A stretch of DNA of 46,831 nt from Alphaproteobacteria bacterium. Its GTDB lineage: Bacteria; Pseudomonadota; Alphaproteobacteria; UBA6615. Position numbers and translations under genes: made by a program. The notes under the pieces are model-generated. The model saw only the letters and a program-made list of their open reading frames with translations, was not told where the DNA came from and did not search any database. Positions within the stretch are counted from its first letter, which is position 1, and each line of letters begins with the position of its first letter. Positions 10,521 through 44,379 of the stretch are shown here, piece by piece. The DNA lies in NCBI GenBank assembly GCA_028822385.1, contig JAPKDV010000006.1, positions 1 to 46,831 of the forward strand, given 5' to 3'.

Positions 10521-12281
10521 TTAGCTATCGTTTGTCTTGCCGCCGCCTACAGCCACACCCATGCGGCGCATGATGACGTATTGCTGGGTAATCGACAGAA
10601 GGTTGTTCCAGGTCCAGTATATCACCAGTCCGACCGGGAAATTTGCTAGGAAGAAGGTGAAAATCAGCGGCATGAACATAAAGATGCGGGCCTGAACCGG
10701 ATCCGCAGGTGCGGGGTTAAGTTTTTGCTGTGCGAACATTGTCAGCCCCATCAGGATTGGCCAGACGCCGAGAGCCAGACCAAAGGGTGGGCTCCATGCG
10801 ACCGCACCGAACAGGGTGAACAGGTTTAGAGGATCTGCAGCCGATAGATCCCGTACCCAGCCGAAGAACGGCGCATGGCGCATCTCGATTGAGACGAACA
10901 GAACCTTATAGAGCGCAAAGAACACGGGAATCTGCAGCGCGATTGGAAGGCAACCCGAAACCGGATTGACCTTCTCGCGCCGATACATGCCCATTAGCTC
11001 TTTCTGCATCTGCTGCTTGTCATCGGCGTATTTCTCCCGCAACTCGGTCATCTTAGGCTGCAGCGCCTTCATCCCACTCATCGCGCGATAGGACTTGTTG
11101 GCCAGCGGGAAGAAGATCAGCTTGATGATCACTGTCACCGCTAGGATTGCGAGACCAAAATTTCCTAGCAGGTTGGCAGCAAAAATAATCACGTTGAGCA
11201 GCGGTTTGGTTAGGAAGAAAAACCAACCGAAATCGATTGAAAGCTCAAATCGGTCGATTTCCTTACCCGGTGCGTCCCGGTATGCCTTCAGCGTCTTGAA
11301 GACCTTGGCCCCGGCAAACAGCCGGTTTGTTTTTTCTAGACTCTCACCTGGGGCCAGTGAAACGGCCGTGCCGCGATAATCGGTTTGGTACAGTTTTGAA
11401 CCGTTTGGAGTAGTGTCGAACAGAAAACGCGCATCGAGTTCTTCGTTCATGTCCGGCACAAGCGCGGTGAGCCAATAAATATCTGTGAAGCCGAGCCAGC
11501 CGCCGGTGGATTTGAAGTTTTGCGGGGCCTCGGGTTCATCCTCGAGATCGTCATAGTCGATCTCGTGCAACTGTTCATCGAGCACACCGACCGGACCTTC
11601 ATGCAGAATGAAGAATCCGCGTGTATCTGGAGTGTTAACCCTAGTGACGCGACCAAACGGACTAACATTGACGGCGGATGTGCCTGCGTTCTTTACCTGA
11701 TCGATGATCGTGAACATATAGTCCTTGTCCACGGCGATGGTTCGCGTGAGCAGCAGCCCGTCATCGGTGCGCGCGGCCAATACGACCGGTGTATTAGATG
11801 TGAGCTTGCGCTGCGCAGATGTCCATTTCGTCTGGCCCCCACCTGTCACGGCGCCATTTCCGGTCAACCAGCCGAATTCTGCGAAGTAGGGGTTCGCCGT
11901 ACCTCGGGGTGAAAGCAGGGTGATGTCTGGGCTGTTCGCTTCGATCGTCTGACGATATCTGTTCAGGGTGAGGTCATCGAAACGACCGCCCGTCAGGTTG
12001 ATTGAGCCACGATAGGACGGCGTTTCAACTAGGATGCGGTCACCTTCGGCAATAATCTCGGCGCGATCCCGCGGCGCGGCTGCCACTAGTTCCTCTACGG
12101 TCTGGCCCGGCGCGGGTAGGGATGGAACACCAATTGTGTTCGGGTCACGGCCGGCCGCTTCGGCCTGACGCTGTGCTTCGGCGACGGCCTGTTCCTGCTT
12201 TGGTTTTTCCACTAGCGTTTGCCAGCCGAGGAGAATGGCAAGCGACGCAACGATCGCGAGGATAAGGTTCTTCTGGTCCAT
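10521..12281 (-). CDS. yidC: Membrane protein insertase YidC
   Basis: N-terminal MDQKNLILAIVASLAILLGWQ, periplasmic domain, C-terminal Oxa1-like core (PVSGCLPIALQIPVFFALYKVLFVSIEMRHAPFFGW). Confidence 0.97.
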   Translation of the reverse strand: MDQKNLILAIVASLAILLGWQTLVEKPKQEQAVAEAQRQAEAAGRDPNTIGVPSLPAPGQTVEELVAAAPRDRAEIIAEGDRILVETPSYRGSINLTGGRFDDLTLNRYRQTIEANSPDITLLSPRGTANPYFAEFGWLTGNGAVTGGGQTKWTSAQRKLTSNTPVVLAARTDDGLLLTRTIAVDKDYMFTIIDQVKNAGTSAVNVSPFGRVTRVNTPDTRGFFILHEGPVGVLDEQLHEIDYDDLEDEPEAPQNFKSTGGWLGFTDIYWLTALVPDMNEELDARFLFDTTPNGSKLYQTDYRGTAVSLAPGESLEKTNRLFAGAKVFKTLKAYRDAPGKEIDRFELSIDFGWFFFLTKPLLNVIIFAANLLGNFGLAILAVTVIIKLIFFPLANKSYRAMSGMKALQPKMTELREKYADDKQQMQKELMGMYRREKVNPVSGCLPIALQIPVFFALYKVLFVSIEMRHAPFFGWVRDLSAADPLNLFTLFGAVAWSPPFGLALGVWPILMGLTMFAQQKLNPAPADPVQARIFMFMPLIFTFFLANFPVGLVIYWTWNNLLSITQQYVIMRRMGVAVGGGKTNDS

Positions 12282-12287
12282 CGCGCG

Positions 12288-12590
12288 TCAGGCCTCTAGA
12301 TGTGACACGGATACACCGTGTTCTGGTTCGAGATGTTGTTTTGCTGCGTTTCCGCAGGCATCGGGTACAGGATCGAAACCCGAGCCACCCCATGGATGAC
12401 AGGAAAGGATTCGGCCAAGGACGAGCCAGCCGCCCTTGGCCGGCCCATGTTTGTTCAGAGCTTGGCAGGCATAGCGTGAGCAGGTTGGCGCGTATCGGCA
12501 ATTGGCCCCCAAGACGGGTGAAATGCACCACTGCCAGATCCAGATCGGAAATTTGAGGATCAAGACGATCATATAGGACACTAATTTCAT
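12288..12590 (-). CDS. yidD: Membrane protein insertion efficiency factor YidD
   Basis: [29 protein letters not shown]...[23 protein letters not shown]. Confidence 0.96.
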
Positions 12591-13015
12591 TCAACGCTGC
12601 CTTTGTGGCCCGGTAAGAACGCGTCGCATTTTTTCAGTGCAACCTCAAGGTCGGAAACCAGTTTATCGAATGCCCGCTGTGCTGTCGCAGCTCGGACTAT
12701 CACAACGTAGTCGCAATCAGCTCGGGCGAAACGGGTGATAACGCGATCAACGGCCGCACGCAAACGTCGTCGTGAGCGATTTCGGATGACCGCGTTGCCG
12801 ACTTTCCGAGTTGCGGTGAAACCGACCCGAATATTGCCATCCACCAAATTGACGTCATTGGGACGTGGTGCCACCTGAAGAACGAGCCCCGGCGCTGCCC
12901 AACGACGTTTTTGAGCCGCAATCCGAAGAAAATCAGATCGTTTAGGAAGGCGCGCTATTGACAAGACATCGCGATACCCGGATTTCGGCGTCGTTTCCAG
13001 CGCCGTGGTGTTCAT
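12587..13015 (-). CDS. rnpA: Ribonuclease P protein component
   Basis: [36 protein letters not shown] motif; between rpmH and yidD. Confidence 0.95.
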
Positions 13016-13070
13016 AGATTTTTAATCCCGGTGATTGCGCCTACACGGTTAAACACCGTGCAGGTGCCGC

Positions 13071-13205
13071 TCAGGCGCTTAGTTTCGTGCGCCCGCGAGC
13101 GCGCCGACGTGCCAGCACTCTACGTCCACCCACAGTCTTCATACGGGATCGGAAACCATGGCGGCGCTTGCGCACCAGATTGCTCGGTTGAAATGTCCGC
13201 TTCAC
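13071..13205 (-). CDS. rpmH: 50S ribosomal protein L34 (44 aa, GTG start; absent from the supplied ORF track)
   Basis: Reverse-strand translation [44 protein letters not shown]; canonical rpmH-rnpA-yidD-yidC order. Confidence 0.98.
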
Positions 13206-13384
13206 GCGAATTCTCCATTGCCTTCAAGGGCTTTGCAATTTGGCCAGCTGTATACGAATACGGTGGGTGGAAGTCAACTCGTGTCAGCGGCGTTTGGTCA
13301 GCAAATATTGCTCACGCCCAAGTGAATGTTTCCGTATCGCTCACTACACAAGTAGGTTCACAACAACAAGGGTATGTAAACACG

Positions 13385-14134
13385 ATGGCAAATTCCGAAT
13401 TCCCAGCATCTCCTCCAACACGTTCAGTCTCTGTCCTGCTCAAGCGCGTTGTGCCACTGACCATTTTTTTAGCTGGTCTGGTGTTTTTTTTCGTTTTTGA
13501 CGTTGGTAGCTTCGCATCCCTCGAAACGCTACGCGAGCATCGTGAAACCTTGCAGTTATTTGTGGCAGAGAACGCTGTGCTCACGGCCTTTGCTGTTGTT
13601 ATACTCTATGCCGTGGTGGTGGCCTTTTCCTTGCCGGTCGGTATCTTCATGACCCTGACGGCAGGATTTCTGTTCGGGACCGTTGGCGGCGGCTTGATTG
13701 CTGTGGTGGGTGCAACGATCGGGGCGACGGCGCTGTTCCTGATTGCGCGCTTTGCATTTGGTGATCTGTTGCAGGCAAAGGCGGCGCCGTTTTTGCCTAA
13801 GATGCAAGAGGGTTTTAGTGCGAACGCATTGAGCTATCTTCTGGTGCTGCGGCTTCTTCCCCTGTTTCCGTTCTGGCTGGTCAATCTGGTTCCGGCATTT
13901 CTCGGAGTTTCCACAGCAACTTATGTGATAGGCACTTTCATTGGAATCATTCCAGGAACTTTCGTCTTTGCTTCGGTCGGGAATGGTATGGGTTCCTTGC
14001 TTGATGTGGGCGAGGGCCCAAGCCTTGGGATTATCTTTAAGCCCGAAGTGCTGGGTCCACTTATCGGACTCGCACTGCTGTCATTGTTGCCCGTGCTGTA
14101 CAAACGGCATCAGGCAAAGAAAAAACAGTCTTAA
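13385..14134 (+). CDS. TVP38/TMEM64-family (VTT domain) membrane protein
   Basis: FSLPVGIFMTLTAGFLFGTVGGGLIAVVGATIGATALFLIARFAFGD typical of VTT domain; start at ATG 13385 because the ORF-track N-terminus (from 13031) lies antisense to rpmH. Confidence 0.85.
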   Translation: MANSEFPASPPTRSVSVLLKRVVPLTIFLAGLVFFFVFDVGSFASLETLREHRETLQLFVAENAVLTAFAVVILYAVVVAFSLPVGIFMTLTAGFLFGTVGGGLIAVVGATIGATALFLIARFAFGDLLQAKAAPFLPKMQEGFSANALSYLLVLRLLPLFPFWLVNLVPAFLGVSTATYVIGTFIGIIPGTFVFASVGNGMGSLLDVGEGPSLGIIFKPEVLGPLIGLALLSLLPVLYKRHQAKKKQS

Positions 14135-39071: not shown

Positions 39072-39875
39072 ATGATCCTACCTTCGCCGCTCTCAATGTT
39101 TGATGTTTCCGGAAAATCGGCTCTGGTGATTGGTGCCACGGGATCTTTCGGAAGCGCGGCCGCAAGCGCACTGGCCCAGATGGGCTGCTATCTTACTATC
39201 GCGGATATGAACTCCGAGAAGCTCGAGGCGCTCGCCGTAGAGCTGCGCGGAGGCGGCGCAAAGGTCAAAATAGTTGCGGAGATCGCAAACTCGGAAGCGG
39301 CAGCTCAGAAGATCATCGATGGCGTTGTGAGTGCCCACGGCGCGCTGGACATGATGTTCGTGGCTACCGGCCTTAATGATGTGGGCTATATCGAAGATCA
39401 GCCTTATGAAAAGTGGCGCGCGGTGATGACTGCCAATCTCGATGGCTACTGGCTGGCCTGTCAGGCCGCGGGCCGACAATTCGCAAAGCAGCCCGGCGAT
39501 CGTGGGCGTGGCAAGGTTGTAGTTGTGTCCTCCACCCGCGGGCGCCATGGCCTTCCAACCGGGTACACTGGGTACTGCGCTTCAAAAGCTGGCCTCGACG
39601 GCATGGTGCGCGCGCTGGCCTGTGAATGGGGGGGGAAGGGAATCAACATCAATGCCATCGGGCCGACGGTGTTCCGCTCCCCGCTCTCGGAATGGATGTT
39701 CTCCGAAGAGAACCCTGGCAAGGCCACCCGTGAAGCCATGCTCGAACGGGTTCCTGTTGGTCGGCTCTCTGATACAAATGATCTTATAGGTGGATTGATT
39801 TACCTGCTGTCGCCGGCCTCGGACTACGTGACTGGTCACACGCTCTACATTGATGGTGGTTACACCGCTGAATAG
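39072..39875 (+). CDS. SDR family NAD(P)-dependent oxidoreductase
   Basis: SALVIGATGSFGSAAASALAQMG, YCASKAGLDGMVRALACEWGGKGININAIGPT, VTGHTLYIDGGYTAE. Confidence 0.94.
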   Translation: MILPSPLSMFDVSGKSALVIGATGSFGSAAASALAQMGCYLTIADMNSEKLEALAVELRGGGAKVKIVAEIANSEAAAQKIIDGVVSAHGALDMMFVATGLNDVGYIEDQPYEKWRAVMTANLDGYWLACQAAGRQFAKQPGDRGRGKVVVVSSTRGRHGLPTGYTGYCASKAGLDGMVRALACEWGGKGININAIGPTVFRSPLSEWMFSEENPGKATREAMLERVPVGRLSDTNDLIGGLIYLLSPASDYVTGHTLYIDGGYTAE

Positions 39876-39911
39876 ATACTGGCGTAATATGAGCAAACAG
39901 GACAACTGAAT

Positions 39912-42900
39912 ATGTTCAAATTGATACTCTGGGCCCTTCCATGGGTTCTCCGCATTGCTCGCTGGCGTTCCCCGGAGTTTCGCGAGCGCCTGACAGAACG
40001 AAATATGGTGGTCCAAATCCGGACGGCCGATAGTAGCGCAGGGCGCTACATCGTCTTTCAGGATGGCGGTATTCGATCCGGGGCGGGTATCTACGACAAC
40101 TCGACGGTTGAGCTGATTTTCAAGACAGCGGCCATCGGCGCAAAATTGCTGATGCCACCGATTGATCAGCTTGAACAGATTGATGCGCTGAAGAATTTTC
40201 TGGTGCGCCTGGAGGGTCCGGATGATGACGGGGTCTGGTTTGCCCAGACCGTGATGGCGGGGATGTCAGCGGGATGGCGGGTTGGCCGCAAGATGCCCGA
40301 CGGCACGACGCGCCTCTGCACCATGACCAATGGCGGTCCGCTGTTCGTCTATGTCCGGGAAGGCAAGATCATCCGCACCACGCCGATTGAGTTTGATACT
40401 GATGATCCGGAATCCTGGTCGATTGAAGCCCGGGGTAAGGTCTTTACGCCCCCGCGCAGCGGTGCGCTTTCGCCACATGCGATGAACTGGAAATCCATGG
40501 TGTATGCGCCCAACCGGCTACAATACCCCATGAAACGGGTTGATTTTGACCCCAACGGTGAACGCAATGTCCAGAACCGCGGTGTTTCCGGCTATGAGCG
40601 GATCAGCTGGGATGAAGCCCTCGACATTGTCTCGTCCGAAATCCAGCGGATGAAGCGCGACTACGGCACCGGGGCCATCGCTTCGAGCAATGGATCGCAC
40701 CACAACTGGGGAAATATTGGCTATTATCTGAGCGCCAAACTGCGTTTCATGAATGCGGTTGGCACCACCGAGGTGCACCACAATCCCGACAGCTGGGAAG
40801 GCTGGTACTGGGGCGCCCTGCACCATTGGGGTGGCAGTCTGCGCGTGGGCGGCGGTGAGCTCTTCGGGACCATCGAGGATTGTCTCGAGAATGCTGAGAT
40901 GGTTGTCTTCTGGTCGAGCAATCCGGAAGCTACGGGCGGTGTCTATGGCGGTCAGGAAGGTACTGTGCGCCGCAGATGGCTGCGCGACCTAGATATCGAG
41001 CTGGTCCATATCGATCCCTATTACAACGACACGGCCCAGTTTCTGGGTGGTAAGTGGATCAGTCCACGCCCGACAACTTCGCCTGCTCTGGCACTCGCGA
41101 TCGCACATGTCTGGATCACCGAAGGTCTATACGACAAGGAATATGTGGAGGCGCGCACCAAGGGCTTCGATGCCTGGCGTGACTACATTCTGGGTGTTGA
41201 AGACGGCGTGGCGAAATCACCGGAATGGCAAGGGTCGGAAACCGGTGTCCCGGCCAAGGACGTACGTGCTCTTGCGCGCAAATGGGGTAGCAAGCGCACT
41301 TATCTAGCTGTCGGCGGCATGGGCAATACTTTTGGTGGTGCGTGCCGCAACACCAACGGCACCCAGTGGACCCGCACCATGGTCTGCCTCATGGGGATGC
41401 AGGGGCTGGGCAAGCCCGGCGTCAATGTGGGCAATCTGCAACTCGGTGTGCCGCTCGATTTTAGCTTCTATTTCCCGGGATATGCCGATGGCGGTATCTC
41501 GGGGGATCTCAACAACACGGCCCTGGCCACCGCGCTCTATCAGCGGATGCCGCAACTGCCGACCATGAACCCGTCGACCCAGCTTATTCCGCGGCTGCGT
41601 TTGCCCGAGGCCATCATTGATGGTCATGCAGAAGGCTTCTTGTGGGATGCCCGGACGATGGAAGGGCAGTTCTCCAAGATCGTCTACCCCAAGCAGGGGC
41701 ACGCCAAGGTGCACATGCTGTATCGCTACGGCACGGCGATCCTGGGAACCCTGAATGACGCCAACCGATATGTTGCGATGTATCGGTCACCGAACCTCGA
41801 ATTCGTGGTCAACCAGTCGATCTGGAACGAAGGGGATGTCGAATTTTCCGATGTGATCCTGCCGGCCTGCACCAATCTGGAGCGTGAAGATATTGGCGAA
41901 TGGGCCAATGCTGGCGGCTATGGCGCGCATTTCAATTCGCAGATCAACCACCGGATTATTGCGTATCAGGCCAAGTGTATTGAGCCTGTCGGGGAATCCC
42001 GTTCCGATTACGATATCTTCTCGGCTCTCGCGTGCCGACTGGGTCTCGGTTCCTATTATACGGAGGGCATGCGGGAACTTGATTGGGTCAAGCGGATGTT
42101 CGATGCGTCCGACCTACCGAAGCATATCTCGTGGAAGAAATTTCTCGAGCGCGGTTACTTCGTGGTGCCGTCAGAAAAACCTGAACACCGTCCGCCGACG
42201 GCTTATCGTTGGTTCGCGGAAGGTCGCAAGAAGGATTTGCCCGAGGCAATGCCGTTGCCGGGTGATTACACCGAGCAATTCCTCGAGGGGCTTCAGACCC
42301 AGTCTGGCAAGTTCGAGTTCGAAAGCTCGAGCCTCAAGCGTTACGCGCCGGATGATCCCGAACGCCCGCTGATCGTCAAATACACACCATCCTGGGAAAG
42401 TTCCAATACGCCTGGGCTTGAGGGGTATCCGCTGCAACTGATGACACCCCATTCGCGATACAGTTTTCACACACAGGGTGACGGCAAGGACAGCTTCCTC
42501 AACGACATCGCCGATCATCGCATGCTGGTCGACGACCATTACTACTGGGTTCTGCGCCTCAACCCGCAGGATGCTGCCGCACGCGGTATCAAGACCGGGG
42601 ATCTGGTTAAGGTGTTCAATGGTCGTGGCGCGGTGTTGTGCGCAGCGTTGCTGACCGAGCGCCTGCGTGCAGGTGTGGCGCAGGGCTACGAATCTTCGGC
42701 CGTCTACGAGCCGATGGGTGAGCCCGGGCGTTCGGTGGACCGCGGTGGCTGTCTGAACCTGCTGTCTCCCCGACGTTCGCAGATCAAGAACTCACACTCC
42801 ATGGCCAACGGCACCGCGATGGTGGAGGTAGTGGTCTGGGATGGGGATATCAGTTTCGAACGGACCGAGCCCCTCACTGATAGACAGGCCGTCGCTGCGG

Positions 42901-42914
42901 AGGCAGTAGAATGA
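39912..42914 (+). CDS. Molybdopterin-dependent oxidoreductase, pyrogallol/phloroglucinol transhydroxylase large-subunit-like, with N-terminal SCP2-like domain
   Basis: [29 protein letters not shown]...[13 protein letters not shown]...[13 protein letters not shown]...[11 protein letters not shown]...[14 protein letters not shown]...[27 protein letters not shown]...[16 protein letters not shown]; residues 1-125 resemble an SCP2 sterol-carrier fold. Confidence 0.88.
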
Positions 42915-43762
42915 ATAAGTGGAACCTGATTGTTGACGTTGCCGAATGCACCAACTGCAGTCTGTGTACTCTGGCGGTTCAGGATGAGCATGTCGGGAAT
43001 GAATTTCCCGGTTATGCGGCTGAAATGCCCAAGCATGGTCATCACTGGATCGAGATCGAACGCCGCGAACGCGGCCAGGGAACCATGGTCGATGTCGCCT
43101 ATGTGCCAACCATGTGTCAGCACTGTGATGACGCCCCCTGTGTTGCCGCAGCGCAGAACGGGGGCGCCTATAAGCGCCCGGATGGCATTGTGATTATTGA
43201 TCCGGAGAAGTCCAAAGGACAGAAACAGATTGCGGAGGCCTGTCCCTATAATGCGGTCTACTGGAATGAGGAGCGAGATATCCCGCAGCACTGGCTCTTT
43301 GATGCACATCTGCTCGATACCGGGTGGAAAGAGCCACGTTGTGTGAGTGTTTGTCCAACCAAGGCATTGCGCGCGATCAAAGTGGACGATGCACAGATGC
43401 AGGAGATGGTGAAAGTAGAAGAATTGGAATCGCTACGGCCCGATCTCGTGACCAAGCCGCGGGTGCATTACAAAAATCTCTGGCGCTATAATAGTAGCTT
43501 CATCGCCGGGACCGTCAGCGTAGAACGTGGTGGGATCGTGGACTGTCTGGAAGATGCACAGGTGGCTCTGAAACAAGAGAACAAGGCCATCTGCACGTTA
43601 CAGAGCGATGGGTATGGAGACTTCAAGATCGATCGTCTTGAGGTCGACAGCGGCGTCTATTTATTGGAAGTCTCGGCGCCAGGTTATGCGAGCGAGACCC
43701 GCGAGGTAACCCTGGGTGAAAGCGTTAACCTTGGTGAAATCCGGCTGACGTCACCCGGATGA
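42911..43762 (+). CDS. Iron-sulfur subunit of the transhydroxylase-like enzyme, with C-terminal beta-sandwich (Cna-B/carboxypeptidase-regulatory-like) domain
   Basis: [41 protein letters not shown] ferredoxin motifs; C-terminal [52 protein letters not shown]; overlaps the large subunit stop by 4 nt. Confidence 0.9.
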
Positions 43763-44379
43763 TTGTGGCGTCGGGTGGGTCGAGAGACTGGGCTGCGTAT
43801 TACACCAAGACCGGTGCGCGCCCGCCGCGACCAAATCTGCTGTTCGCGCTGGACCGATTTGAAGCGGAAACCAGCGACACGCCTCGGCTGGCCGTTGATT
43901 TGGGCGCTGGAGGTGGACGTGACGTCATTGAAATGCTTCGACGTGGCTGGCGAGTGATGGCGATTGATGGCGAGGCAGCAGCTGCTGAAGCGCTGCGGGC
44001 GCGTTCAGATCTTCCTGTGGGTGCAAGCTTTGAGACTAAGACGGCACGTTTCGAAGACGCTGACTGGCCGGGTTGTGACCTAGTGAATTCTAGCTTCGCT
44101 TTGCCTCTCTGCACGCCGGACCAGTTTCCGCTGGTCTGGCAAAAGATCACGTATAGCCTCAATTCGGGCGGACGATTTGCCGGGCAGTTCTATGGCGAAC
44201 GCGACAGCTGGGCCGGGCGCGAGGGGATGACTTTTCACACGCAGCACGAGGTTGAGGCTCTTTTGTTAGGCTTAGAAATTGAGTTCTTCGAAGAGGAAGA
44301 GGACGATTCTAAAACCCCGCGTGGCGAAGCCAAGCACTGGCATGTGTTTCATGTGGTCGCGCAATTGCGTCTTGGCTAG
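43759..44379 (+). CDS. Class I SAM-dependent methyltransferase
   Basis: PRLAVDLGAGGGRDVIEMLRRGWRVMAIDGEAAA motif I; ATGA overlap with the upstream FeS subunit. Confidence 0.85.
   Translation: MIVASGGSRDWAAYYTKTGARPPRPNLLFALDRFEAETSDTPRLAVDLGAGGGRDVIEMLRRGWRVMAIDGEAAAAEALRARSDLPVGASFETKTARFEDADWPGCDLVNSSFALPLCTPDQFPLVWQKITYSLNSGGRFAGQFYGERDSWAGREGMTFHTQHEVEALLLGLEIEFFEEEEDDSKTPRGEAKHWHVFHVVAQLRLG

Follow-up and report, generated by a model that had tools for sequence, protein, structure and literature searches.

Two described molybdenum enzymes frame the locus analyzed here. The first is the pyrogallol-phloroglucinol transhydroxylase (TH) of Pelobacter acidigallici (4v4c), which has a large and a small subunit; following its published structure, we take Ser175 to be the molybdenum ligand, and we take the active-site roles of His144, Asp174 and Tyr404 from the same source. 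The second is the resorcinol hydroxylase of Azoarcus anaerobius, whose large subunit (RhL) is described as a close, Ser-ligated relative of TH; in anaerobic respiration it hydroxylates resorcinol, which serves as electron donor (PMC10100899). A separate line of work ties SCP2 proteins, UbiJ and UbiT, to the hydroxylation of a lipid phenol in ubiquinone synthesis (PMC6747719). In a 46,831-nucleotide stretch of an alphaproteobacterial contig (the window), these two themes appear to meet in one polypeptide, a TH-like molybdenum enzyme core preceded by a domain that is SCP2-like by predicted fold. The open-licence literature that we searched yielded no description of an SCP2-fused, transhydroxylase-like clade and no paper that combines an SCP2 domain with molybdopterin.

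The large subunit is encoded by an open reading frame of 1000 aa on the forward strand (39912-42914), as are all window features described below. Its start at 39912 and the residues quoted for it in an earlier, sequence-only reading of this DNA were verified. The large subunit of the Pelobacter enzyme (4v4c_A) aligns with query residues 133-979 (E = 3e-288, 847 residues); because this alignment begins at residue 133, the window protein has ~132 extra N-terminal residues, which agrees with that reading both in placing the start of the core near residue 135 and in holding that the Pelobacter subunit has no such extension. The AthL-like molybdenum (bis-MGD) enzyme core spans residues 133-1000 (40308-42914) and matches AhtL-like domain 1 (PF21423, 90.2 bits), Molybdopterin (PF00384, 111.7 bits) and Molydop_binding (PF01568, 54.9 bits), all above cut-off. 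A search of the phylum sample with PF21423 returned the window's own match and no other above cut-off. The four TH residues named above all have equivalents in the corresponding alignment columns: His263 for His144 (40698-40700; 34/34 fused proteins), Asp293-Ser294 for Asp174 and Ser175 (40788-40793; 33/34 and 34/34, respectively), and Tyr524 for Tyr404 (41481-41483; 34/34).

Residues 1-128 are a separate domain, conserved in 77-82 relatives and under purifying selection. Against six relatives, dN/dS is 0.07-0.14 in residues 1-132 and 0.02-0.08 in the core, and from the former range it follows that residues 1-132 are translated and selected. The large subunit does not begin at its core: 132 residues precede it, as throughout the fused clade described below. 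All full-length relatives from the same GTDB family have the extension from residue 1-4, and so do six of the six AthL-like core proteins found when 289 genomes of the class were sampled. The sequence-only reading had named a start near residue 130 as an outcome that would undo its proposal, and unfused relatives and the Pelobacter enzyme do begin near there. This alternative nevertheless fails, because an RBS-like AGGA lies at 39899-39902, 9 nt 5' of the ATG, and the frame upstream of that ATG is open for just 8 codons. With the selection on residues 1-132 and the presence of the extension in every member of the fused clade also against it, we regard an annotation artefact as exceedingly improbable. 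Two homologues differ at their N termini. One (L060, 8347-8994) has ~216 more residues ahead of the SCP2-like domain, free of any Pfam match, which may be an over-long start call; the other, from Sinorhizobium terangae (L121, 9001-11601), aligns from residue 123 only, its N-terminal part being missing or out of frame.

Structure prediction assigns this N-terminal domain (residues 1-128; 39912-40295) to the SCP2 fold. Its predicted elements run helix, helix, four β-strands, helix, helix, β-strand, helix, and they are the same in two AlphaFold2 models built from different alignments (16 sequences: mean pLDDT 80, pTM 0.72; 77 sequences: pLDDT 80.6, pTM 0.71). When both models were compared with the PDB by Foldseek, the top ~36-38 matches were exclusively SCP2 folds. 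UbiJ-SCP2 was the best match to each (E = 1.7e-5 and 3.3e-5, probability 1.00; TM up to 0.65/0.72 for the second model), followed by Archaeoglobus AF1534, the SCP2 domains of the alkylsulfatases SdsA1 and Pisa1, and animal, yeast and Thermus SCP2. The SCP2 affinity that the sequence-only reading had proposed for these residues is thus supported by modeling, and its remark that the first ~125 residues do not resemble a molybdopterin enzyme agrees with the finding that residues 1-144, searched alone against Pfam and NCBIfam, match no family. The sequence evidence is weaker than the fold evidence. PF02036 (SCP2) is the commonest Pfam family among 82 relatives (20/82, best E = 0.0014), but these matches are below the curated cut-off, which none of the 82 reaches, and the window protein has no match to it. 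Alignment of the domain by hhalign with ad hoc alphaproteobacterial SCP2/UbiT alignments was not significant, the best result being 24 columns over a UbiT-like helix 1, and phmmer and profile searches against PDB sequences gave chance matches only (e.g., FtsE and fasciclin). For this reason we call the domain SCP2-like by predicted fold and not a certified Pfam SCP2 member. A PF02036 search of the organism's own genome, an incomplete assembly, also found no match; the family model therefore misses the fused domain, and no separate SCP2 was seen.

The sequence-only reading had also proposed docking to the membrane through a hydrophobic N-terminal helix, and here the data do not support it. That helix is helix 1 of the SCP2-like fold, its hydropathy of 0.79 is far under the level of a membrane span, and only 1/77 relatives exceeds 1.6; we rejected membrane anchoring accordingly. 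Inspection of residues 1-30 found no twin-arginine (Tat) motif, as that reading had noted, and since neither a Tat motif nor a membrane-span helix is present, the enzyme is probably cytoplasmic.

Far from being an oddity of the window protein, the extension is standard throughout a large clade. Family-specific patterns, scanned against GTDB genomes, gave at least 594 matched stretches, at least 581 of them encoding a relative. The domain occurs in nearly all of the best 80 of these at least 581 relatives, among them proteins from Moorella, Gracilibacter, Actinomycetota and Deltaproteobacteria/Myxococcota, in a list biased toward fused proteins by a query that carried the domain. Because of this bias, we searched 39 of the genomes with such matches with the core only. 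Complete copies at about 60% identity or more lie in open frames near 1000 aa, and those at 56% or less are 843-937 aa; in the loci fetched for the latter, the domain is absent both as a fusion and as a separate protein. On a core tree of 60 rows (34 fused and 26 unfused, Pelobacter TH among the unfused), all 34 fused proteins fall on one side of a single branch with SH-aLRT 100 and so form one clade, nested among the unfused proteins, which include its sister rows; the tree is a quick one with long-branched outer rows, and the fused split is not among its flagged joins. The fusion was gained once, and the clade that carries it is now found in Bacillota, Actinomycetota, Deltaproteobacteria/Myxococcota and Pseudomonadota. 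One uncultured actinobacterial MAG (G709, L107) has 13 AthL-like core matches, all but one apparently unfused.

Taken as a whole, the sequence-only reading is partly supported, and it overlooked both the clade-wide extent of the extension and the loss of an iron-sulfur cluster from the partner subunit. This small subunit (42911-43762) has a 4-nt overlap with the stop of the large-subunit frame and consists of ferredoxin domains (Fer4_11) and a C-terminal carboxypeptidase-regulatory-like domain (CarboxypepD_reg); 4v4c_B matches it over its whole length, C-terminal domain included (E = 1.5e-71). It does not have the 12-Cys, three-cluster pattern: 9/12 cluster cysteines are present, Cys23 being replaced by Val (42977-42979) and the cysteines that unfused relatives and Pelobacter have at positions 128 and 131 by Trp128 and Asp131 (43292-43303). 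By analogy with NarH numbering, we take C23, C128, C131 and C144 to be the ligands of a single [4Fe-4S] cluster that sits in the middle of the relay, so that three of its four ligands are gone. Of the 97 small subunits examined, 70 have lost C128 and C131, and the loss maps to one change on the core tree. Every scored unfused row retains the two cysteines, as do the fused rows that branch early (L095, Deltaproteobacteria/Myxococcota, Moorella, Gracilibacter and Actinomycetota); the other scored fused rows, all of them proteobacterial where an origin is named, have lost them. The order of events would be gain of the SCP2-like domain and then loss of the cluster.

This unexpected loss would break the electron relay and would favor redox-neutral hydroxyl transfer, and it bears directly on the alternative that the enzyme exports electrons as the Azoarcus hydroxylase does, taking its oxygen from water, passing electrons through the Fe-S subunit and tolerating the missing cluster. 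RhL itself is the precedent for such a reaction. A TPP-type E1 dehydrogenase, a type of component that belongs to the resorcinol pathway, is also encoded in one fused locus (L100). An electron-exporting enzyme, however, would have to work with three ligands of one cluster gone in the window's small subunit, two of them also lost in most of the 97 small subunits examined, and by NarH numbering the cluster affected is the middle one. We consider this alternative decidedly unlikely.

The gene neighborhoods address the substrate. Directly upstream of the enzyme lies a short-chain dehydrogenase (SDR; 39072-39875), an adjacency kept in L036, L038 and L039, and an ORF resembling SAM-dependent methyltransferases (43759-44379), possibly an O-methylation step or a maturation factor, overlaps the small-subunit stop and is kept in the four close relatives L036-L039. 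The window and these four relatives have in common the SDR, the methyltransferase, enoyl-CoA hydratase, OsmC, a hydroxyisobutyrate-dehydrogenase-like protein, CMD and thiolase. Other fused loci are differently furnished: Burkholderia and Paraburkholderia have an extradiol-type VOC dioxygenase, FAH, acyl-CoA synthetase (found by similarity in a gap of the gene table in Paraburkholderia) and the porin OmpW; Ensifer combines a FadL/Toluene_X porin with VOC, FAH and acyl-CoA synthetase; FadL and FAH occur in Salipiger; and still others have homogentisate dioxygenase (HgmA), fumarylacetoacetase or extradiol-type neighbors. The set of FadL, acyl-CoA synthetase and extradiol genes is absent within 9 kb of the window's own copy, and because the window's own neighborhood differs in this way, a hydrophobic phenol is suggested by the relatives. 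Their neighborhoods fit a hydrophobic aromatic substrate, in keeping with the hydrophobic substrate that the sequence-only reading had suggested. At L100, a single protein (11040-13775), ~4 kb downstream of the fused AthL-like gene, joins E1 dehydrogenase/transketolase domains to a glyoxalase-type (VOC) domain.

Standalone copies of the domain offer a second view of its likely ligands. A profile search of the class sample found two. The first (G099, E = 3e-10) belongs to an operon-like meta-cleavage array (L018, 360-8345) in which its neighbors are FAD-binding aromatic hydroxylases and in which a TetR-like regulator, FAH, acyl-CoA synthetase and an extradiol-type VOC protein are encoded close by. 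Since its VOC (40% identity) and FAH (48%) are, among the loci compared, closest to the neighbors of the Burkholderia fused enzyme, this looks like one ring-cleavage module fed in two ways: by the fused SCP2-Mo enzyme in Burkholderia, and here by flavin hydroxylases accompanied by an SCP2-like protein of their own. The second (G027, E = 7e-6; L162, 621-1178) lies 4 nt upstream of a gene of the linalool dehydratase/isomerase (Ldi) family (1183-2829, E = 1.6e-10), a pairing that suggests a terpene or other hydrophobic substrate.

These contexts also weigh on the alternative that the SCP2-like domain no longer binds lipids and has become an assembly or docking surface, for oligomerization or the recruitment of partners, on an enzyme whose substrate is small and polar, such as resorcinol or pyrogallol. 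UbiJ organizes a multiprotein complex, so SCP2 folds can act as scaffolds (PMC6747719), and HgmA, fumarylacetoacetase, extradiol-type dioxygenase and FAH neighbors fit small aromatic acids as well. Yet strand and helix positions that are hydrophobic remain so in >90% of 77 sequences, the standalone copies adjoin unrelated enzymes that act in hydrophobic or aromatic catabolism, the Ldi homologue among them, and FadL or OmpW occurs at fused loci. On balance a pure docking role seems rather unlikely to us.

The explanation that we prefer, with slightly more confidence than doubt, is a two-subunit SCP2-Mo enzyme that holds a hydrophobic phenol at its molybdenum site and hydroxylates it without O2, the likelier chemistry being transhydroxylation. 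A cytoplasmic enzyme with the predicted activity of a pyrogallol transhydroxylase or resorcinol hydroxylase would take up an alkyl-, acyl- or prenyl-phenol through its SCP2-like domain, which may hold the phenol beside the buried molybdenum site much as the SCP2 domain of UbiJ holds polyprenyl-phenols for the ubiquinone hydroxylases. The molybdenum site would then hydroxylate the ring without O2. With the Fe-S relay cut in this clade, a co-substrate phenol is a likelier source of the hydroxyl than water, a route in which electrons would leave via the small subunit; this step depends on cluster numbering taken from NarH. The computed results are the predicted fold, the conserved core and catalytic residues, the one-time gain of the fusion and the subsequent [4Fe-4S] loss. 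UbiJ also raised a role in ubiquinone biosynthesis, which we judge unlikely because the clade includes Moorella, which is not known to make ubiquinone, and because genomes have several copies with catabolic neighbors.

In many genomes, members of the fused clade go under the names pyrogallol hydroxytransferase or molybdopterin-dependent oxidoreductase; their substrate is probably not pyrogallol. The broadest reading, possible but doubtful, is a widespread molybdenum clade devoted to O2-free hydroxyl transfer onto lipid-like phenols, with a built-in SCP2 carrier and a cut Fe-S relay; if true, this would be a molybdenum counterpart of UbiJ/UbiT and their hydroxylase, catabolic and present also in groups with aerobic members. 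Should the domain deliver hydrophobic phenols, the clade would represent a breakdown route for oily phenols in sea and soil, and phenol hydroxylases of at least two unrelated chemistries would have acquired SCP2 carriers as partners. The coherent cluster loss offers a direct handle on what the clusters do in a transhydroxylase, which needs no net electron transfer.

Placed beside known systems, the window enzyme shares with Pelobacter TH the core, the Mo-Ser ligand, the His/Asp/Tyr set and the whole small subunit, whereas TH is without the SCP2-like domain, has all 12 cluster cysteines in its small subunit against nine, and has Arg153 and Trp354 in its pocket where the window protein has Tyr and Phe. 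Azoarcus RhLS, compared here by its published description, is likewise Ser-ligated, of the same subfamily and a phenol hydroxylase (PMC10100899). UbiJ-SCP2 is the nearest solved fold, and UbiJ and UbiT link SCP2 to lipid phenol hydroxylation (PMC6747719). They are, however, separate biosynthetic proteins with <20% sequence identity to the domain, and their hydroxylase partners are flavin or U32-type and not molybdenum enzymes. The alkylsulfatases SdsA1, Pisa1 and YjcS resemble the window protein in having a fused SCP2 domain, an amphiphilic substrate and a good fold match, but their SCP2 domain is C-terminal and their catalytic domain is unrelated.
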